Source of the DNA: Acidobacteriota bacterium | Lineage (GTDB): Bacteria > Acidobacteriota > Terriglobia > Versatilivoradales > Versatilivoraceae | Reading direction: 5' to 3' | Length of the DNA: 57,649 nt | Assembly (NCBI GenBank): GCA_028875575.1 | Contig: JAPPDF010000053.1 | Coordinates: 1-57,649 of the forward strand | In this document: in pieces, positions 12,516 through 52,457 of the stretch | Numbering within the stretch: position 1 is the stretch's first letter | How the letters are laid out: each line of letters starts with the position of its first letter | Program-made: the position numbers and the translations under genes | The notes under the pieces: generated by a model | Seen by the model: the letters and a program-made list of their open reading frames with translations, nothing else | What the model was told of the DNA's origin: nothing | Databases searched by the model: none

Positions 12516-13433
12516 ATGACCCAACCGACCTTGATTCTCGACGTGCCGCCGGACTTCAGTTTCTGGAGAACCGTGCTGAGCCACGGCTGGTCTACCCTGC
12601 AACCCTTCGTTATGGATCGTCGTCGGCGCCGGCTATTGCGGGTCCTGCAACTCGACTCCCAGCCGGCACTGGCCGAGATGCGGGAACAAACGGATGGCAA
12701 AGTCCGGGTGGGCGTACACTCCTCCGGTCCGCTGTCCGGTCGGGACCTGAGATCGGTCAAGGAGGCCGTGGCCCACATGCTGCGGTTGGGAGAATCCCTG
12801 GCCGAGTTCCATAGGGAACTGGCACGGCGGGACCGTTCGGGCCGGTTCCACTGGGTCCCCCGGGCCAAGGCGGGGCGGTTGCTGCGGGCCCCCTCCTTCT
12901 TCGAGGACATGGTCAAGATGATCTGCACCACCAACTGCTCCTGGAAGGCCACCCAGCGCATGGTGACCGGGATGGTTCAGAAGCTGGGGACACGACTGGA
13001 TTCCGACTACTGCTGCTTTCCCAGCCCCGAGCAACTGGCGGGGACCACTTCCCGGTTCCTGAGACGGGAGATTGGCTGCGGATACCGCAGCGGCTATCTC
13101 ATTGAGCTGGCCGAGAGAGTGGCCACGGGCAGGCTGCCGAACGGTGAATGGGAGGATCTGACCGGGGAGGAAGCCTACCGCCGACTGCTGGCCATCAAGG
13201 GAATCGGTCCCTATGCCGCCGGGAATCTGCTGAAGCTGCTGGGTCACCACGACCACCTGAGCCTGGATAGCTGGGTCCGACCCCGGTTTGGGGCCGTTTA
13301 TGGACTGAAGAAGGCCCCCAAGGACTCCGCCATCCAGAGGCACTACCGGCCTTTCGGCCGCTGGCAGGGGCTGGTGCTCTGGCTCGATCTGACCCGGGAC
13401 TGGTTCGAGGACGGGGATTCGCGGTCTTCCTGA
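12516..13433 (+). CDS. HhH-GPD DNA glycosylase (AlkA/OGG-like)
   Basis: A 305-residue base-excision repair glycosylase of the helix-hairpin-helix superfamily. The hairpin LLAIKGIGPYAAGNLLKLL (about residues 225-245) is followed 10-15 residues later by the catalytic Asp in HDHLSLDSWVR. The N-terminal region (GWSTLQPFVMD...RRRRRLLRV) fits the beta domain seen in AlkA and OGG proteins. No Lys appears at the usual OGG catalytic position in the hairpin, so a monofunctional alkyl-base glycosylase is more likely. It diverges from the LolA-like gene across 85 bases. Together with the type-5 UDG, it is the second DNA glycosylase of the window. Confidence 0.88.
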   Translation: MTQPTLILDVPPDFSFWRTVLSHGWSTLQPFVMDRRRRRLLRVLQLDSQPALAEMREQTDGKVRVGVHSSGPLSGRDLRSVKEAVAHMLRLGESLAEFHRELARRDRSGRFHWVPRAKAGRLLRAPSFFEDMVKMICTTNCSWKATQRMVTGMVQKLGTRLDSDYCCFPSPEQLAGTTSRFLRREIGCGYRSGYLIELAERVATGRLPNGEWEDLTGEEAYRRLLAIKGIGPYAAGNLLKLLGHHDHLSLDSWVRPRFGAVYGLKKAPKDSAIQRHYRPFGRWQGLVLWLDLTRDWFEDGDSRSS

Positions 13434-13559
13434 TGTACGGTTTGCCCGGCGGCCCCGGGTCCCGGGAATTGCCGGCCCGGGTATAATGGGGCATTCCGCA
13501 GAGAGCATGGGCGGCTCGATCGCCAAGAGATGCCGTAACCGGGAATCCTCCGAGGGAAC

Positions 13560-15158
13560 ATGCTGCCTTTGTCACTGGTAAGTCAATTCAAGGACCAATG
13601 CGTCCTGATCGCCGGCGACACCCACATCGACCGTGAGGTCTACGGGGACGTGCACCGCCTGGCGCCCGAAAGTCCCGTTCCGGTGCTGCAGATCACCTCG
13701 AAGCGGGCCATCCCGGGTGGGGCCGCCAATGTCGCCAGGAACATCTCCAGGCTGGGCGGCCAGGCGGCCCTCTACGGCTTCTTCGAAGGGGATGAGGCCA
13801 GCCGGGAGATTTTGGGTGAACTGCGGGAGGAGGGCGTTCAGGTGCTGAGCGCCCCGCCGACCGCCCCCTATCGCCTGCCGGAGCGTCGGCGCTTTTTCGC
13901 CTCAAACCACCAGCTCATCCAGATCCTTCAGCGGCCGGCCATCGACCACTATGCCGACTCGCTACCCCCCCTTGGCGAGTTCACCTCCGAACTCCCCGGC
14001 AGGCCCCGAACCGTAGTGGTCTACGATCAGGGCTACGGCTTCGTGACACGATCGCTTCTGGACTCGGTGGAAGCCCTGGCCCGGGACCAGGGGCTGAAGG
14101 TCGTCATCGACGCCCATCCGGAGCATGTCCGCTGGTATCCCCGGGCCGACCTTTTCACCTTCAACGCCGGAGAAATCGTGGCAGCGGCGGCTCAACTGGG
14201 GGAGTCCGACTCCAGCCCGGAGCGGGCGGGCCGGCGGGTGGCCGAGAGGCTGGACTCGAATGTTCTGGTTACCCGCGGAAGCCAGGGGATGACCATCTTC
14301 CCCACCTCGGGCCGGCCGCAGACCATTCCCGCCGACCCGGTGCCACTGGCGGACCGCGCGGGAGCCGGCGACAGCGTGACCGCCGTTCTGGCCCTGAGCC
14401 TGTCTGCCGGCGCCGACCTGAAATCGGCGGCAGCCCTGGCCAACAAGGCCGCGGCCACGGTGGTTTGCAAGCCCGGCATCGCCTACCTGAATCCGGAAGA
14501 GCTGCTGAATCTCTTTCACCCCCAGATCAGCAGCCTGCTGCGCGAGAGCGTCGAGGTGAAACAGCGCCTGATCACCGAGCAACTCCCGGAGATCGAACGG
14601 GTGGTGAGGGCCATCATTCAGACCTACCGCGACCACAAGACCGTCTACGCCTTCGGCAACGGAGGGAGCGCCGCCGACGCCAACCACTTCATTACCGAAC
14701 TGGTGGGCCGTTTCCGCATCGAGCGCAAGGGACTCCCGGCCTTCTCCTTTTCCACCAACGAGATCCTGATGACCTCCATCGCCAATGACTACGGGTACGA
14801 AAGCACCTTCACCCGCCAGGTGGACACCTTCGTCAAGCCCGGGGACCTGGTGGCGGCCTTTTCGACCAGCGGAAAGTCGGAGAATGTCGTGCGGGCCATC
14901 CAGATGGCCAAGGAAAAGGGGGCCACCACGGTCGGCTTCACCGGATCCTCCGCCGGGAGCTTTCCCGAGCTGTGTGATCTCTGCATTCAGGTGCCTTCCG
15001 ACAACACCCCCCGTATCCAGGAATCCCACCTGGTGGTCGTCCACATCATCTGTGAACTGCTGGAAAAGGAGTTGGCCCTGACGGACCCGATAAAAGACCC
15101 CCCTGTTCCCGTCCGGCCTTCAGGCCAAGACCCCCATGGAAACACGAGTCAAGAATAG
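13560..15158 (+). CDS. Fusion of HldE-like heptose kinase and SIS-domain sedoheptulose-7-phosphate isomerase
   Basis: A 532-residue two-domain protein. Residues about 1-315 form a PfkB/ribokinase domain of the HldA/HldE type (GDTHIDREVYGDVHRLAPES, PGGAANVARNISRLGG, catalytic loop DRAGAGDSVTAVL). Residues about 335-515 form a GmhA-type SIS domain (VYAFGNGGSAADANHFITEL, AAFSTSGKSENVV, PRIQESHLVVVH). GmhA makes heptose-7-phosphate and HldA/HldE phosphorylates it at C1, so the fusion joins two consecutive steps of ADP-heptose synthesis for LPS or surface glycans. The usual HldE partner is a nucleotidyltransferase, which is absent here. It overlaps the next gene, a second kinase, by 23 bases. Confidence 0.9.
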   Translation: MLPLSLVSQFKDQCVLIAGDTHIDREVYGDVHRLAPESPVPVLQITSKRAIPGGAANVARNISRLGGQAALYGFFEGDEASREILGELREEGVQVLSAPPTAPYRLPERRRFFASNHQLIQILQRPAIDHYADSLPPLGEFTSELPGRPRTVVVYDQGYGFVTRSLLDSVEALARDQGLKVVIDAHPEHVRWYPRADLFTFNAGEIVAAAAQLGESDSSPERAGRRVAERLDSNVLVTRGSQGMTIFPTSGRPQTIPADPVPLADRAGAGDSVTAVLALSLSAGADLKSAAALANKAAATVVCKPGIAYLNPEELLNLFHPQISSLLRESVEVKQRLITEQLPEIERVVRAIIQTYRDHKTVYAFGNGGSAADANHFITELVGRFRIERKGLPAFSFSTNEILMTSIANDYGYESTFTRQVDTFVKPGDLVAAFSTSGKSENVVRAIQMAKEKGATTVGFTGSSAGSFPELCDLCIQVPSDNTPRIQESHLVVVHIICELLEKELALTDPIKDPPVPVRPSGQDPHGNTSQE

Positions 15159-16140
15159 CCTGGAATGCATCCGGCAGATCTCCGGCGTGCGGGTGCTGGT
15201 GGTCGGCGATGTCATGCTGGACACCTACCTGGCTTGCCGGGCCTTGGGCGTGGCCGACGAAGCCCCCGTCCCCCTGCTGGAAGTCCGAAGCCAGTCCCGG
15301 GCGCTTGGGGGAGCCGCCAACGTGGCGCGCAACCTGGCCCGGCTGGGTGCCCACACCGCCCTGACAGGAATGGTAGGAGGCGATTCCGAGGCCGAGGCGG
15401 TTAAAAGGCTGCTGCGGGAATCGGGTGTGGAGGGGGCCCTGCTCGAGAGTCATAGGCCGACCACTCTCAAGACCCGCGTGCTATCGGGAGATCACTACTA
15501 CCTTCGGCTGGACGAAGAAGAACTCTCGCCTTTGACCGAAGCCGAACAGGCTGCTTTGGCTGCCCGAATCGAAGCTCGATTGAGCGAGGTCGATCTGCTG
15601 GTGGTCTCCGACTACGACAAGGGGTTGCTCTCTCCGAGCCTGGCCGAGCGGATCGAACGCTTGGCCCGGGAGAGCGGCCGCCGGATCGTGGCCGACCTCA
15701 AGCCCCGAAACGCCCTCAACTGGCGCCACCTGCACCTGATCGCCCCCAACCTGAGCGAAGCCCGTTCCCTTAGCGCCCAACTCGATTCCGGAGGGGAACC
15801 GGGCGATGACGTCGAGACCATTGCCGAAACGCTCAGATGCCGGATGGGCTGTGCTGTAGTTCTGAAGATGGGCAGCCAGGGCATGCTGATTGCGCCACCC
15901 TCCGGCTCCACCTGCCGCCTTGATGCCCTCTGCCCTTCCCCGGTGGAGGTCTCGGGAGCCGGCGACACAGTGCTGGCAACGCTGGCCGCCGCTCTGGCCC
16001 AGGGCGCCGATCTGCACCAGGCCGCCCGGCTGGCCAACCTGGCCGCGTCCATCTCCGTCTCCAGGCCCGGCACCCACGCCGTCTCGGCAGCCGAGCTGAC
16101 GGAGGCGGTGACTCAATCAGAAAAGGCACAAGGTGCCTGA
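15136..16140 (+). CDS. D-glycero-beta-D-manno-heptose-7-phosphate kinase (HldA/RfaE domain I)
   Basis: A 334-residue PfkB-family kinase that adds the C1 phosphate to heptose-7-phosphate. It shows VGDVMLDTYLACRALGVADE, PLLEVRSQSRALGGAANVARN, TTLKTRVLSGDHYYLRLDEE (substrate loop) and SGAGDTVLATLAAALA with the catalytic Asp. No nucleotidyltransferase domain follows, so it is HldA-like rather than a full HldE. It starts inside the end of the kinase-isomerase fusion and is translationally coupled. Its 3' end overlaps the convergent TauE gene by 24 bases. Why two kinases sit together is unknown; the fused one may have a different sugar. Confidence 0.88.
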   Translation: METRVKNSLECIRQISGVRVLVVGDVMLDTYLACRALGVADEAPVPLLEVRSQSRALGGAANVARNLARLGAHTALTGMVGGDSEAEAVKRLLRESGVEGALLESHRPTTLKTRVLSGDHYYLRLDEEELSPLTEAEQAALAARIEARLSEVDLLVVSDYDKGLLSPSLAERIERLARESGRRIVADLKPRNALNWRHLHLIAPNLSEARSLSAQLDSGGEPGDDVETIAETLRCRMGCAVVLKMGSQGMLIAPPSGSTCRLDALCPSPVEVSGAGDTVLATLAAALAQGADLHQAARLANLAASISVSRPGTHAVSAAELTEAVTQSEKAQGA

Positions 16141-16833
16141 CACGAGCAGAAAGACCGCTGCCCACCTCCGAAACACCTTCTCCCCAGCCCGGAGATGGAC
16201 AAAGTGACCCAACAGGGTCGCCGCCACCAGAGCCGGCAGCAGAGTCAGGGCCAACTGCAACCCCTGAGTGTCCAGCAGCCCCTGGTGGGCATACAATCCG
16301 AGCCTCCAGGCGTACTCGACGGCAAACAGCACGATCAGCGTCGCCCGAAATGCTGCCTTGTCCAGGGCCTGGCTCGAGAGGAAGGCCACATAGGCCGGGC
16401 CGCTGGTTCCGAACATTCCTCCCAGCAATCCTCCCGCAAGCCCCGCCGCCAGCCCCCATCGGCTGGACACGACCGGGGCTGAGGGCGTATTTCGCAGGAA
16501 GAACAAACCGACCCCAATGACAGCTACGCCCAGGACAATCTCCATAGGCCGGTTGCCCCAGGAAGCCAGCAAATAGACTCCCGCAAGGCTACCGGGCACC
16601 GCCCCGGCCAACAGCCGCAACAGGTTGGCCCGGTCGACCCTGCGAACGGCGCCGGGCACCAGCAGGATGCTGAGAGCCACCTCCAGGCAGGATTCGACAG
16701 GAACGATAAACTTCAGGGGAAAGAGCAGCGCCAGCAGGGGAATGCTGAGCAACGCCCCTCCGAACCCGGAAAAGGATCGGAAGAAAAAGGCAAACAGGAT
16801 GATGGCCTGAGCAGCCAGCAGGGATGGATTCAT
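16117..16833 (-). CDS. TauE/SafE-family sulfite or anion exporter
   Basis: A 238-residue integral membrane protein with about eight hydrophobic spans and the two-fold TauE/SafE repeat. Each half carries a Gly-rich motif: FFRSFSGFGGALLSIPLLAL near the N-terminus and GLAGGLLGGMFGTSGPAYVAF in the middle. Family members export sulfite, sulfoacetate or other small organic anions; the substrate cannot be read here. It overlaps the heptose kinase tail to tail and has no same-strand partner. Confidence 0.88.
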   Translation of the reverse strand: MNPSLLAAQAIILFAFFFRSFSGFGGALLSIPLLALLFPLKFIVPVESCLEVALSILLVPGAVRRVDRANLLRLLAGAVPGSLAGVYLLASWGNRPMEIVLGVAVIGVGLFFLRNTPSAPVVSSRWGLAAGLAGGLLGGMFGTSGPAYVAFLSSQALDKAAFRATLIVLFAVEYAWRLGLYAHQGLLDTQGLQLALTLLPALVAATLLGHFVHLRAGEKVFRRWAAVFLLVSGTLCLF

Positions 16834-17043: not shown

Positions 17044-17313
17044 ATGCGGCTCCTTTGACGCGAACCCAAGCGGCAAGCCAACCTCAAGAAGCATGGACTG
17101 GATTTCGTCGACGCTGAGCATGTCTTCAAGGGTCCTCTGTTCACCTTTGAAGACAACCGCGAGAACTACGGCGAACAGCGTTGGATCACGCTTGGGCTTT
17201 TGGGCACGAAGGTCGTAGTAATCGTGCATACTGAAACTGAAGATGCACTCCGTGTTATTTCCATGCGTGAGGCAGACAACGATGAAAAGCTTCTCTTCTT
17301 CAGCAACCTGTAA
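17044..17313 (+). pseudogene. brnT: brnT toxin gene interrupted by an in-frame TGA at codon 5
   Basis: BrnT is a RelE-fold ribonuclease toxin. From 17059 the frame reads REPKRQANLKKHGLDFVDAE, then the typical FTFEDNRENYGEQRWITLGLL, VVVIVHTE and ALRVISMREADNDEKLLFF, ending TAA at 17311. In frame upstream, ATG 17044 gives MRLL followed by TGA (17056-17058). Aligned to the family N-terminus (M-x-x-x-W-D-x-x-K-x-x-x-N-x-x-K-H-G), the TGA falls exactly on the conserved Trp codon with no gap. One G-to-A change (TGG to TGA) therefore explains it. No good internal start lies before the core. The antitoxin gene downstream is intact. A sequencing error is possible. Confidence 0.85.
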
Positions 17314-17587
17314 TGATCGTGATGAATATCCCAAGGTGACACAAACGGACCTGGACCGGGCCACATTCCGCGTCGGACTCAAGCCCGCCCCACGCAAGCA
17401 ACGCATCACAATCTCGCTGGACACAAACCTCGTCGAATACTACAAGGCAAAGGCAGGGAAGCGCGGGTATCAAACCCTGATTAACGAGACATTGAGGCAG
17501 GCGAAGGAACAGGAAGAGTTGGCCGATACGTTACGGAGAGTCATTCGAGAGGAATTGCATCGCGAAAAGCACTACGGCAGCACCTGA
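17282..17587 (+). CDS. brnA: BrnA antitoxin (BrnT partner)
   Basis: The DNA-binding antitoxin that neutralises BrnT and represses the operon. The family core is clear: VTQTDLDRATFRVGLKPAPRKQRITISLDTNLVEYYKAKAG (seen in two parts), then GYQTLINETLRQA, a ribbon-helix-helix at the C-terminal half, and a charged tail. The start is uncertain. ATG 17282 overlaps brnT by 32 bases and gives 101 residues; GTG 17336, after the brnT stop, gives 83 residues, closer to typical BrnA length. With brnT broken, it is an orphan antitoxin that may still repress its own promoter or counter a BrnT elsewhere. Confidence 0.88.
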   Translation: MKSFSSSATCNDRDEYPKVTQTDLDRATFRVGLKPAPRKQRITISLDTNLVEYYKAKAGKRGYQTLINETLRQAKEQEELADTLRRVIREELHREKHYGST

Positions 17588-48269: not shown

Positions 48270-51200
48270 TTGTTCTCTGTGATCGTATTGAACATCAACA
48301 GGCTTTCATCATGTATCCGGCCACCCGGTGAGAAATGCGGGCCAAGGACAAGCTCCCCGTGCTGGATTGTCCTTGCCTGGCACTTCGCCCTGCTGTGGTT
48401 CCTTCCAACCGGCGCGTTCGGGCAAGGTATCTGCGACCGCACGCCTCAGGTGCGGGAAGCCCTATTGGAGGTTACCAGGATATCCACCTGCGGACAGGTC
48501 ACCGGCGCCCATCTGTCCAGCGTGCGGCGACTGGATCTTTCGGCGTCCGAAATCACCGAGCTCAAGCAGAACGACTTCAGCGGTCTGAACTCCCTGGAAT
48601 GGTTGCGGTTGAACGAAAACTCCCTGACCGAATTGCCTCAAGGGATCTTCAATGGACTGAATTCGTTGAAAGGCCTGTGGTTGCAGAACAATTCCCTAGC
48701 TGCTTTACGCGATACGGTTTTTAGCGGGTTAGGCAGGCTGCGTGAACTGGTGCTGTTTCAAAACTCGCTGAGTGTGCTACCCGAAGGAATTTTTTCCGGT
48801 CTGGTCGAGCTGAGAACTTTGCGCCTGCAGGACAACTCTCTGAGGACATTGCCCGAGGGAGTTTTTCAAGGGTTGCACAATCTGAGTGAGATGACATTTC
48901 TAGGAAACTCTCTGAGAGACTTACCTGGGGAAATCTTTAGTGGCTTGAGCAATTTGAAACACCTGAATCTAGGTCGGAACTCGTTGGGTTCGCTGCCCAA
49001 GGATATCTTCAGCGGGTTGAACGCACTTGCGGATTTGGGTTTATCGGGAAACCAGCTAAGTGAGTTACCCGAAGAGATCTTTAGCGATCTGAACTCGCTG
49101 GAAACGCTTTGGCTAGTGGACAACCCTCTGAGCACTCTGCCCGCGGGAATCTTCGACGATGTCCTGGATACGATGGGAAGCAGTCCCCATGGGCCCGGAC
49201 TCGGAGTAGACAACCACATGAAGGCCAGTTTGGCCTTCGCTGCGACTTCACAAATCGTATTTTCAGGAACTAATGTGACGGTTACCGTGACGCTGAGCCG
49301 CGAGTTGCCCGTGGCCGTTCGGCTACCCTACAGCCTGGGAGGCAGCGCCACCGAGAACGACTATGCGAATCTGTCCCCCCAACCGGAATCGGGGCTGCTT
49401 TTTCCGGCCGGAGAGACGAGCAAGGAGATTCGTTTTGCGCTGCCGGAAAGCGACGACCGCCCGGGTAAAACGATCGTGCTGACCTTGGGGGAGCTCTCCC
49501 GGGTCCGTCTGCGCCGCTCCGACGGCTCGCCCCCTGACGCTCCTTTTCTGAAGGCCGAAACCCTGGTCGACCGTCCCGAGGATCTGGCCGACCATACGGT
49601 TACGATTTCTTCCCCTAACCAGCCTACGGGTCTTTGCAACCGTACGCCTCAGGTTAGAGACAAGCTGCTGGAGATCACGGGGATACCCGACTGCGCACAA
49701 GTCACACTGGGGCGTCTGGCTGAAGTCACCCGGTTGGATCTTTCAGGCAGCGGACTCACCGCACTTCAAGCGCACGACTTCGGCGGCTTGGTCGCACTGC
49801 ACAGCCTGTTATTGAACAACAACTCCCTCAGGACGCCGCCCGAGGGCGTCTTCAGCGGTCTGAAATCGCTGCGGGTGCTGTGGTTGCAGGGCAACGGGTT
49901 CAACAGCCTTCCCCTTCGAGTTCTGGACGAAGTGATCCACAGGCTGGAGGACCTGCGGGTGGATCCCCGACTGAGCGCCAGCCTTGCCTTTGAGTCGAGT
50001 GCGCAGGAAACGGTGACAGGCGCAACCGTGAGGGTTCGGGTGTGGCTGAGCCGTGCCCTGCCGGTGGCGGTGCGCGTACCCTACAGCGTGAGCGGCACTG
50101 CCACCGAGACCGACTATGGCGGGTTGTTCCCCTCTCCGGAAGTTGGGCTCTTGTTCCCTGCCGGCGAGACTGGGGGGCAGATTGTATTTACTCCCTTGGA
50201 GGACTCGGAAGCCTTGGGGAAGACCGTGGTGCTGACCCTGGGGGAGCTCTCCGAGATCGGACTGCGCCGCTCCGACGGTAGCGGCGACGATGCTCCCGGA
50301 CTGGACGCCGGGGTGCTGGTGGACCGGCCGGCCGCTGGAGCCGTCCACACCGTGACCATGGCTCACTCCAACCAACCGGCAGACGTCTGCGAACGCACGC
50401 CGCAAGTGAGGGATGCGCTGGTCGAAAGGCTTGGCCGGGTCTGCGAGGACATTACGACGGCGCATTTGGCCGAAGTGCGAATCCTGAGTGTGGATGACCC
50501 CGAGTTTACTACCCTTCAAGCACACGACTTCAGCGGGCTGATCGCCCTGGAATATCTGCTGTTGGATCGCAACTCCCTGACCTCATTGGCCGAAGAGGTC
50601 TTCAGCGAATTAACCTCCCTGAAAGGGCTCCGGTTGCAGGACAACTCGCTAAGCATGTTGCCAGAGGGAGTCTTCCAGGGGCTGAATTCTCTGCGAGAGC
50701 TATATTTGTATAGAAACTCTCTGAGCGTCCTGCCTCCCAAGGTCTTTCGCGGCCTGGGCAACCTGCGCGAGTTGCGGTTGTGGGGAAATTCCCTGACCGG
50801 CTTGCCGCCGGGTGTATTCCAGGGGCTGAGCAAACTGGAGGACCTCGAGTTGGGCGCTAACCACTTGAACCAACTTCCGGAGGGAATCTTTAGCGGCCTT
50901 GACAACCTGCGAAGCTTGTGGTTGTCCTTGAACCCCATCAACGAGTTGCCAGAGGGAGTCTTCGACGGTCTGAGCAAGCTGGAAGAGCTGCGGTTGTTGG
51001 GCAACCACCTGGAAGATCTGCCCGTGGACATTTTGGACGGATTGGACAACCTGCGCCTCTTGGTATTGTCCGGCAACCCCCTGAAGGATCTACCCGAGGG
51101 AATCCTGGACGATGTGCTCGATACCTTGGGCGGAGAATACACTGTCGATTTCGGAGCAGGCGTGCTGGGCGGCAACCCTAACGTCATACAAGTGCCCTAT

Positions 51201-52457
51201 CGCGGCCATCTGTCCGTGGATTCCGACCTGAAGGCCACGCTCGCCTTTGCTTCAACCGAAACCGAGGCGCCGGAGGGCGCCACCGTGAGGGTGCCGGTCA
51301 CCTTGAGCCGGGAGCTTCCGGTGTCCGTGAGGGTGCCCTATTCCGTCGGCTTCGGCGGGGCCTCAGCCGGTTACACCAACCTCTCTCCCGCTCTGGACAG
51401 CGGGCTTCTCTTTCCGGCGGGAGAGACCCGAGGCCAAATTTCCTTCACATTGTTGCGGGATACCGCCGCCCAGGGAGAAAGAAGCCTGGTGCTGACCCTG
51501 GGGAAGCCCACCGAGATCCGCCTGCGCCGCTCCCACGGGGAGCCCCCCGACGCTCCGGACCTAAGGAGCGATAGTCTTGTCCTCCGGTCCAAGCACCAAG
51601 CCCTCCACACCGTGACCGTTTCCGACGTCGATCCGGCAGAGCGGGACCCCTTCTGCCTCTCGCTGTGGCAGGATTCGCCCTGCTCCACGGTGGCCATCCT
51701 GCCTCATCTCTTCCTGGGCCCCCTGGGCGAGCATCTGGCCAATACTGAAGTGGCTGTCACCCACAAGGACCCCGAAGCGGCTCATTGCGAGGTGGCAGTG
51801 TTGTTTGACCAAGGGACCTCGATGGCCTCGGCGGTGTCGTTCAGCGGACGGTTTCCGGACGGTAACCTCTTCCGCACCACCCTTCCCAGGGGAGGGGCCG
51901 AGTTGCTGACCCTGACGGCTCCAGATGCCGGACAGCTGACATCCGGAGCTCTATACGTCTTTGCTCGCTCGCCCTGCCAGACCGGCTCCCTTCAGGTCCA
52001 GGCGCGCCATCTGCTGGAAAGTCCATCCGATGGAGAAACGGTGGAACTGTTTTCCGTAGACGGCCAATCGGAAAACGACTGGCTGGGAGACGGAGACTGC
52101 CGCAGGCTGACCGCAATGTTGAGAAATGGCGACAACGTGGGACTGGCTTCGGTGACCACCCGGCCGGGACAATCGGCCCCGCCCGGCACCCGACTCCGCT
52201 TCGCGGAATTCGATCTGAATGGGAACTTGATCGGCAGCCTCGGCAGCCTGGAGATCTACGGGCAGCACCACGCCACATATCCCTGGTCGCTCGATCGGCC
52301 CGCAACCATCCAGATGTGCCTGGACGTGCCCGGCGCCAGTGACTTTCAACTGGCCATCGATGCCCTGGGCACCACGGCCGGGGGCGCCAAGGTGCAATTT
52401 TCCACCGTGATCATTCCCGGTGACACCGGGCCGGACGACCGCGGCCCGAGTCGATAA
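48270..52457 (+). CDS. Secreted LRR protein with three cap-LRR-Calx-beta-like modules
   Basis: A 1395-residue secreted or surface protein. After a signal-like segment (WIVLAWHFALLWFLPTGAFG, about residues 33-52) come three homologous modules. Each opens with a Cys-RTPQVR cap (Cys55, 456, 707). LRRs of the type LPEGIFSGLxxLxxLxLxxNSL follow, about 10 in module 1, three or four in module 2, about 11 in module 3. Each module ends in a Calx-beta-like sandwich (about 317-427, 570-680, 987-1095: VTLSRELPVxVRVPYS, GLLFPAGET, LVLTLGE, IxLRRS). A separate C-terminal domain (1120-1385) carries Cys pairs. The TTG 48270 start is a guess; GTG 48279 and TTG 48288 are alternatives, and all lie in a MITE relic. 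The subtilase gene follows 12 bases later. Likely role: extracellular binding or adhesion. Confidence 0.85.
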   Translation: MFSVIVLNINRLSSCIRPPGEKCGPRTSSPCWIVLAWHFALLWFLPTGAFGQGICDRTPQVREALLEVTRISTCGQVTGAHLSSVRRLDLSASEITELKQNDFSGLNSLEWLRLNENSLTELPQGIFNGLNSLKGLWLQNNSLAALRDTVFSGLGRLRELVLFQNSLSVLPEGIFSGLVELRTLRLQDNSLRTLPEGVFQGLHNLSEMTFLGNSLRDLPGEIFSGLSNLKHLNLGRNSLGSLPKDIFSGLNALADLGLSGNQLSELPEEIFSDLNSLETLWLVDNPLSTLPAGIFDDVLDTMGSSPHGPGLGVDNHMKASLAFAATSQIVFSGTNVTVTVTLSRELPVAVRLPYSLGGSATENDYANLSPQPESGLLFPAGETSKEIRFALPESDDRPGKTIVLTLGELSRVRLRRSDGSPPDAPFLKAETLVDRPEDLADHTVTISSPNQPTGLCNRTPQVRDKLLEITGIPDCAQVTLGRLAEVTRLDLSGSGLTALQAHDFGGLVALHSLLLNNNSLRTPPEGVFSGLKSLRVLWLQGNGFNSLPLRVLDEVIHRLEDLRVDPRLSASLAFESSAQETVTGATVRVRVWLSRALPVAVRVPYSVSGTATETDYGGLFPSPEVGLLFPAGETGGQIVFTPLEDSEALGKTVVLTLGELSEIGLRRSDGSGDDAPGLDAGVLVDRPAAGAVHTVTMAHSNQPADVCERTPQVRDALVERLGRVCEDITTAHLAEVRILSVDDPEFTTLQAHDFSGLIALEYLLLDRNSLTSLAEEVFSELTSLKGLRLQDNSLSMLPEGVFQGLNSLRELYLYRNSLSVLPPKVFRGLGNLRELRLWGNSLTGLPPGVFQGLSKLEDLELGANHLNQLPEGIFSGLDNLRSLWLSLNPINELPEGVFDGLSKLEELRLLGNHLEDLPVDILDGLDNLRLLVLSGNPLKDLPEGILDDVLDTLGGEYTVDFGAGVLGGNPNVIQVPYRGHLSVDSDLKATLAFASTETEAPEGATVRVPVTLSRELPVSVRVPYSVGFGGASAGYTNLSPALDSGLLFPAGETRGQISFTLLRDTAAQGERSLVLTLGKPTEIRLRRSHGEPPDAPDLRSDSLVLRSKHQALHTVTVSDVDPAERDPFCLSLWQDSPCSTVAILPHLFLGPLGEHLANTEVAVTHKDPEAAHCEVAVLFDQGTSMASAVSFSGRFPDGNLFRTTLPRGGAELLTLTAPDAGQLTSGALYVFARSPCQTGSLQVQARHLLESPSDGETVELFSVDGQSENDWLGDGDCRRLTAMLRNGDNVGLASVTTRPGQSAPPGTRLRFAEFDLNGNLIGSLGSLEIYGQHHATYPWSLDRPATIQMCLDVPGASDFQLAIDALGTTAGGAKVQFSTVIIPGDTGPDDRGPSR
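48280..48344 (+). mobile_element. Relic of MITE right end inside the LRR gene 5' region
   Basis: CCCGGTGAGAAATGCGGGCC (48324-48343) matches the right terminal repeat of the elements at 2446 and 56510 with two or three changes. The 20-45 bases before it (CTTTCATCATGTATCC) resemble 56715-56736. The rest of the element is not recognisable. The frame of the LRR protein runs through it just before the signal sequence. Confidence 0.6.

Follow-up and report, generated by a model that had tools for sequence, protein, structure and literature searches.

GmhA is the committed enzyme of ADP-heptose synthesis. ADP-heptose feeds the lipopolysaccharide (LPS) core and acts as a strong immune signal, as described in PMC10948575, and GmhA itself is a tetramer whose zinc site involves H61, E65, H183, and the neighboring Q175, according to PMC5387315. 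Fusions among the enzymes of this pathway are already known, as in Escherichia coli HldE, where a heptose kinase is joined to an adenylyltransferase. Here we describe a different fusion in an Acidobacteriota bacterium (assembly GCA_028875575.1; 4.49 Mb in 101 contigs), encoded on a 57,649-nucleotide part of contig C53 (JAPPDF010000053.1), hereafter the window. One gene, K1-GmhA, encodes an HldA-like PfkB kinase domain (K1) followed by a GmhA domain, and a free HldA-like kinase (K2) is encoded directly after it. Like HldE, the protein is a heptose-pathway enzyme fusion containing the kinase; unlike HldE, it has a C-terminal isomerase as the partner and no adenylyltransferase domain. The isomerase that starts heptose synthesis is fused to a domain akin to the enzyme of the following step; the sugar pocket of this domain has been rewritten, and its function, judging from sequence, is probably other than the textbook second step.

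The fusion of GmhA to pathway partners is not unique to the window. In the plasmid-encoded GmhA-kinase-adenylyltransferase proteins of Streptomycetaceae, exemplified by WP_024127265.1 (Streptomyces sp. F8) and by Embleya sp. NBC_00888, GmhA and an HldA-like kinase also share one chain. However, their order is SIS-kinase-nucleotidyltransferase, with GmhA first and an adenylyltransferase added, whereas that of the window is kinase-SIS. Such tri-domain proteins accounted for two of the five plasmid matches examined from 183 matching records. Their genes lie on Embleya and Streptomyces plasmids at L145 2339-4417 (+) and L146 2417-4378 (+), and the Streptomyces one is annotated only as rfaE2 (G, C, and L numbers are our handles for genomes, contigs, and loci). 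Likewise, in another Acidobacteriota family (L115, L134, L135), a fused GmhA adjoins a free HldA-like kinase, although the fusion partner there is an adenylyltransferase and not the kinase. The order of adenylyltransferase-GmhA and then a free canonical kinase is found at L115 1489-2520 (-), L134, and L135, and also within L202 and L203; no second Pfam domain was found at L109, where GmhA ends a 935-amino acid frame. The window is new in three respects: the kinase precedes GmhA, the kinase pocket has been rewritten, and a second kinase is coupled to the fusion. No published description of such a kinase-GmhA fusion was found in the literature, which was covered mostly outside subscription papers.

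The HldA/HldE kinase profile (rfaE_dom_I, TIGR02198) matches residues 7-317 of the fusion with an E-value of 5.3e-62 and 209.7 bits, and the gmhA profile (TIGR00441) matches residues 351-502 at 7.5e-51 and 172.2 bits, which does not reach its curated whole-protein cut-off of 209.45. K2 matches rfaE_dom_I at 9.4e-83 and 277.9 bits. The NCBIfam scores of K1, GmhA, and K2 all lie under the curated whole-protein cut-offs, and the kinase cut-off was reached by just 2 of 14 control genomes. Pfam reads the fusion as PfkB plus SIS_2, with 103 bits for K1 (PF00294) and, for the GmhA half (PF13580), 94 bits where the cut-off is 27; K2 is read as PfkB. No match to the adenylyltransferase domain (rfaE_dom_II) was found in the fusion with NCBIfam or Pfam profiles, and GmhA occupies that place. 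An earlier note on this DNA had claimed a fusion of a kinase and a GmhA-like SIS domain beside a free HldA-like kinase, with the two frames overlapping by 23 bases; open reading frames and domain matches confirm the former, and the overlap is exact to the nucleotide. The K2 start codon lies within these final 23 nucleotides of the fusion gene. The overlap was present in all seven genomes of the genus and at none of the three loci from other genera that were examined, and it likely couples the translation of the fusion and K2. At the likely ribosome-binding site of the fusion gene, GAGG or GGGG is retained across the seven genus genomes.

The full-length fusion, with no stop codon between the domains, was present in 10 of 200 genomes of the class among the matches listed, all from the family of the window. 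This family contributes 12 genomes to the sample, and the ten carriers comprise seven genomes of one genus together with G065, G077, and G024. The copies are uninterrupted and 63-100% identical, and K2 directly follows the fusion at all ten loci; a TGA reported in G024 is the stop codon that ends the fusion gene. Since the ten full-length loci agree and K2 is adjacent each time, an assembly or frameshift artefact is ruled out. In the two remaining family members, the fusion is broken up by contig ends. The kinase and GmhA parts of G046 are on separate contigs, with GmhA beginning at base 2 of its own, and G071 has just 157 N-terminal residues ahead of the end of its contig. Among the matches listed, no full-length fusion was found in the 188 class genomes of other families, of which G140 has kinase and SIS genes in tandem with a stop codon between them. 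Across 396 genomes of the phylum, a sample that partly repeats that of the class, only the window's own genome had the full-length fusion among the matches listed. On these listed matches, the idea that the fusion is common across the phylum is rejected, and by these genomes and the literature covered, it is not a widespread and fully characterized arrangement. Similarly, among the matches listed for 296 genomes of the phylum of a Bacteroidota-labelled assembly, none spanned both domains. The nearest named relatives are Acidobacteriota metagenome assemblies, including Candidatus Versatilivorator vitaminiformans, the fusion of which is 95% identical. One carrier of the family's fusion, L026 (VFZK01000007.1), is labelled Acidimicrobiia; its match equals that of G024, and the label looks wrong.

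The GmhA half closely resembles described phosphoheptose isomerases. Compared with GmhA (TIGR00441, NF010546; Protein Data Bank (PDB) 2xbl, 2x3y, and 1x92), SIS_2 aligns over its length and the H/E/Q/H ligands are all kept, whereas the isomerase chains in the PDB span 188-219 residues and the fusion has a kinase-fold domain of 320 residues in front. We calculated the ratio of nonsynonymous to synonymous substitution rates (dN/dS) over the 21 pairs of the seven genus genomes, and for the GmhA half, it is 0.07. Because the zinc ligands are kept in all ten copies and this ratio is so low, the GmhA half is very likely a functional isomerase. Moreover, the fusion is the sole SIS_2 protein of its genome and of six of the seven genus genomes, the seventh (G007) having one additional. 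The first 18 codons of the C-terminal tail show a dN/dS of 0.79. The structure model of the whole fusion is fair to mediocre (predicted local distance difference test (pLDDT) 68.8), and its halves retrieve HldA and GmhA from the PDB.

The kinase half has changed at positions that canonical kinases do not vary. We collected 109 kinase frames, skipped five as too short, and obtained 82 rows on removal of duplicates; five divergent rows (L174, L093, L145, L146, L147) were dropped. The resulting alignment of 77 domains comprises 43 canonical kinases, 11 K1 (one truncated), 10 K2, 12 K3 (a third kinase of the genome), and one K3-like row that was kept out of the canonical set. The canonical kinases were 40 from Acidobacteriota, drawn from the matches of the K1 and GmhA searches, and three HldEs, one from E. 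coli and two encoded on plasmids. All 43 share the same residue at 38 columns, which are numbered here as in E. coli HldE. With the truncated K1 of G046 excluded from the residue counts, nine of the 38 are lost in all ten full-length K1 copies: K106R, R118Q, D120L/I/W, E122R/T, Y152Q, K154Y, P178A/G, P194F, and V259R. In a leave-one-out control, seven canonical clades lost 0, 0, 0, 0, 0, 1, and 0 invariant columns. We refer to the lost residues as the pocket, a term that we assume from knowledge of the ribokinase family and from their conservation. Six of the nine positions (K106R, R118Q, Y152Q, K154Y, P194F, and V259R) carry one identical replacement in 10 of 10 copies, and K1 has a dN/dS of 0.19, lower than the 0.32 of K2; both features indicate that K1 is under purifying selection, and the ratio rejects the idea of a decaying pseudogene.

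These changes appear specific to the fusion. Seven kinases found outside the family share 35-40% identity with K1 among the matches listed, and they include the best there by identity (G212, 40%). Each carries the canonical residue at every one of 24 examined sites; the change in K1 is therefore a property of the fusion lineage rather than of the neighborhood from which the domain came. These kinases are independent of the column definition except for that of G284, which the canonical set already contained as L121. In addition, a search of the 396 phylum genomes for the YDQGYG motif of K1 returned ten loci, of which the window's own was the sole kinase; at six of the other nine, the motif lies in frame in unrelated proteins, and three have no motif-bearing frame of at least 60 amino acids. 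By this motif search of the 396 genomes, the pocket is not that of a known free-standing kinase subfamily.

Because nine of 38 invariant columns are lost, standard heptose-7-phosphate kinase activity is doubtful, and K1 is probably not a standard heptose-7-phosphate kinase. The earlier note had pointed to a substrate loop that differs from the standard one. The difference is real and fixed in every copy, and the alterations extend well beyond this loop; however, the loop quoted as standard, KTRVLSGDHYYLRLD, is that of K2, which has Tyr instead of the usual Gln or His at position 115. Given these fixed, selected pocket changes, the suggestion that the specificity was altered or that the domain became regulatory is plausible, whereas the statement that the protein joins steps 1 and 2 is not borne out by a kinase domain so altered. 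A label such as "bifunctional isomerase/kinase" drawn from domain matches alone would probably mislead for this gene.

K2 and K3 are better preserved. In all copies, K2 has lost five of the 38 columns (G27C, R31G, P34D/N, P178L, and T231K), while it keeps the lid residues K106, R108, R118, D120, and E122 as well as Y152 and K154 in 10 of 10. K3 has lost three (P34R, P178S, and K154M/F/L), so that P178 is lost in K1, K2, and K3 alike. The HldA of Burkholderia cenocepacia (PDB 4e84, 4e8w, 4e8y, and 4e8z) is the best PDB sequence match for both K1 (4e84, E-value of 5.5e-34) and K2, which differ in the loss of nine and five of the 38 columns, respectively. The K2 model (pLDDT 87.1) has the HldA fold, with template modelling scores of 0.84/0.89 to 4e84.

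Each of the three kinases, K1, K2, and K3, is a single clade in the two trees that we computed, the second of which additionally left out L104 and L144. The trees differ on the closest paralogue of K1, which may be K2 or K3. K2 fell among the canonical kinases and K1 apart in the first quick tree, and K1 joined K3, with a long-branch warning, in the second when it was left free. Constraining K1 and K2 as one clade gave a log-likelihood 6.75 above that of the free quick search and was not rejected (approximately unbiased test, p = 0.657). As L025 groups with L026 and L024 joins the genus in the branching of both K1 and K2, the pair predates the spread of the family. The simplest history would be that hldA was duplicated in tandem and that the upstream copy then fused to gmhA.

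The gmhB-like and adenylyltransferase genes, for which the earlier note had proposed a search, lie elsewhere in the genome. On contig C84, a gmhB-like phosphatase, K3, and an adenylyltransferase sit between two genes of the GT9 heptosyltransferase family, adjoined by lpxK and a Kdo-transferase gene in the order waaA-lpxK-GT9-gmhB-K3-adenylyltransferase-GT9. The genome thus has a standard LPS heptose cluster in which gmhA alone is missing. A second, HldC-like adenylyltransferase lies on contig C66 (G000:C66:20282-20701; L073 8112-8726); it is the sole one above the model cut-off and outscores that of C84. Its flanks look by eye like bioB and mfd, and no other heptose genes were recognized around it. 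No HldD epimerase reached the cut-off in the genome (best 97.3 bits versus 274.6), and the heptose end product may therefore stay in the D,D form.

Our preferred reading, which we hold tentatively, is that the protein is a GmhA carrying an N-terminal, HldA-derived domain that is no longer a standard kinase and most likely regulates the GmhA core or tethers K2. The observations behind it are the unimpaired zinc site and sole-GmhA status of the isomerase half, the fixed, selected losses in the kinase pocket, and the conserved pairing of the fusion gene with K2. The fusion would be the cell's sedoheptulose-7-phosphate isomerase, with the activity and oligomeric state expected of GmhA. The rewritten pocket of K1 would bind ATP, a pathway metabolite, or both, so that K1 regulates the GmhA core or holds the cotranslated K2 against it. 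Step 2 would have other providers, as the lid residues are retained in K2 and K3 belongs to the LPS cluster; either or both may carry it out. A more specific version, which we regard as possible but less probable, is that a captured heptose kinase domain was stripped of its kinase function and now serves as a built-in sensor and dock, tuning the committed step of ADP-heptose synthesis and holding K2. If true, a pathway enzyme would have become a regulator or dock of the enzyme that precedes it, for which natural examples are unusual.

Several points weigh against a repurposed domain. The general kinase landmarks (GAGD, NxxE, the two N-terminal aspartates D20 and D24, and GG with N57) survive in nine or all ten of the K1 copies, a pattern more in keeping with an active kinase than with a dead one; GAGD is presumed, from ribokinase-family knowledge, to hold the catalytic base. 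In G065/L024 (JAKUNG010000027), D24 is replaced by S and D271 by E, yet the fusion is whole, GmhA half included, and the fused domain is presumably kept there without normal catalysis; this case, which speaks for repurposing, comes from a single metagenome assembly. Effector binding and a K1-K2 contact are themselves proposals, and the lid region of the fusion model (residues 99-129) has a pLDDT below 50.

Ranking close behind the repurposed domain, and nearly as likely, is a K1 that remains an active kinase but acts on a new substrate, its grip on heptose 7-phosphate having been swapped for one on another sugar or sugar phosphate that arises from the GmhA product or competes for it. We regard this as possible: the retained landmarks, the six uniform replacements, and the purifying selection on K1 would all suit it, as would the second adenylyltransferase away from the LPS cluster. 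However, the G065 lineage still keeps the fusion after losing D24 and D271, and neither the HhH-GPD protein upstream nor the TauE-family protein downstream hints at a new substrate.

A true bifunctional enzyme, in which GmhA passes heptose 7-phosphate to K1 by channelling, with K2 and K3 either redundant or active in other branches, is less likely, and we consider it improbable. Although each domain matches its expected NCBIfam family, the catalytic aspartate is mostly retained, and Streptomycetaceae have multidomain proteins joining these steps, K1 lacks K106, R118, D120, E122, Y152, K154, and three more residues that are invariant in 43 of 43 canonical kinases, all seven outside kinases checked are canonical, and the same genome holds two better preserved kinases. 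Least probable, and in part a special case of the repurposed domain, is an obligate K1-K2 heterodimer forming one composite heptose kinase on GmhA from complementary residues: the genes are adjacent at 10 of 10 loci and overlap within the genus, a joint K1+K2 clade is not rejected, and apart from P178, the eight K1 losses and four K2 losses (G27, R31, P34, T231) do not overlap, but by simple arithmetic, such non-overlap among 37 columns is expected by chance about one-third of the time and is not statistically notable.

Table 1 Positions of the K1-GmhA fusion, K2, and flanking genes in the window
Feature	Position	Strand	Remarks
Fusion gene K1-GmhA	13560..15158	+	532 aa, stop codon included; open reading frame and domain matches
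Likely ribosome-binding site GAGG	13552..13555	+	4 nt ahead of ATG; read from sequence
K1, HldA-like PfkB kinase domain	13578..14510	+	aa 7-317; TIGR02198
K1 lid / substrate loop	13875..13934	+	aa 106-125; K106R, R118Q, D120L, E122R (E. coli HldE numbering)
K1 YDQGYG motif	14022..14039	+	aa 155-160; replaces SDYxKG
K1 GAGD, catalytic aspartate D271	14361..14372	+	aa 268-271; 9/10 full-length fusions; E in G065/L024
GmhA (SIS_2) domain	14523..15074	+	aa 322-505; profile matches
Zinc ligands H376 and E380	14685..14699	+	Invariant in 10/10 copies
Zinc ligands Q487 and H495	15018..15044	+	Invariant in 10/10 copies
Genus-specific C-terminal tail	15075..15155	+	aa 506-532; alignment; without counterpart in three aligned other-genus copies
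23-nt overlap, fusion/K2	15136..15158	+	Common to 7/7 genus genomes
K2, free HldA-like kinase	15136..16140	+	334 aa; canonical lid, altered 27-34 loop
HhH-GPD protein	12516-13433	+	Upstream of fusion
TauE-family protein	16117-16833	-	Downstream of K2

Since the flanking genes encode an HhH-GPD protein and, on the opposite strand, a TauE-family protein, the fusion and K2 look like a self-contained gene pair. Farther downstream, a BrnA-type antitoxin (Pfam PF14384) is encoded at 17243-17587 (+), and the + strand just upstream of 17243 resembles by eye the end of a BrnT toxin, so that a BrnT-BrnA pair is likely. In addition, a 1395-residue protein with many leucine-rich repeats and a Calx-beta domain is encoded at 48270-52457 (+) and is possibly a surface protein.

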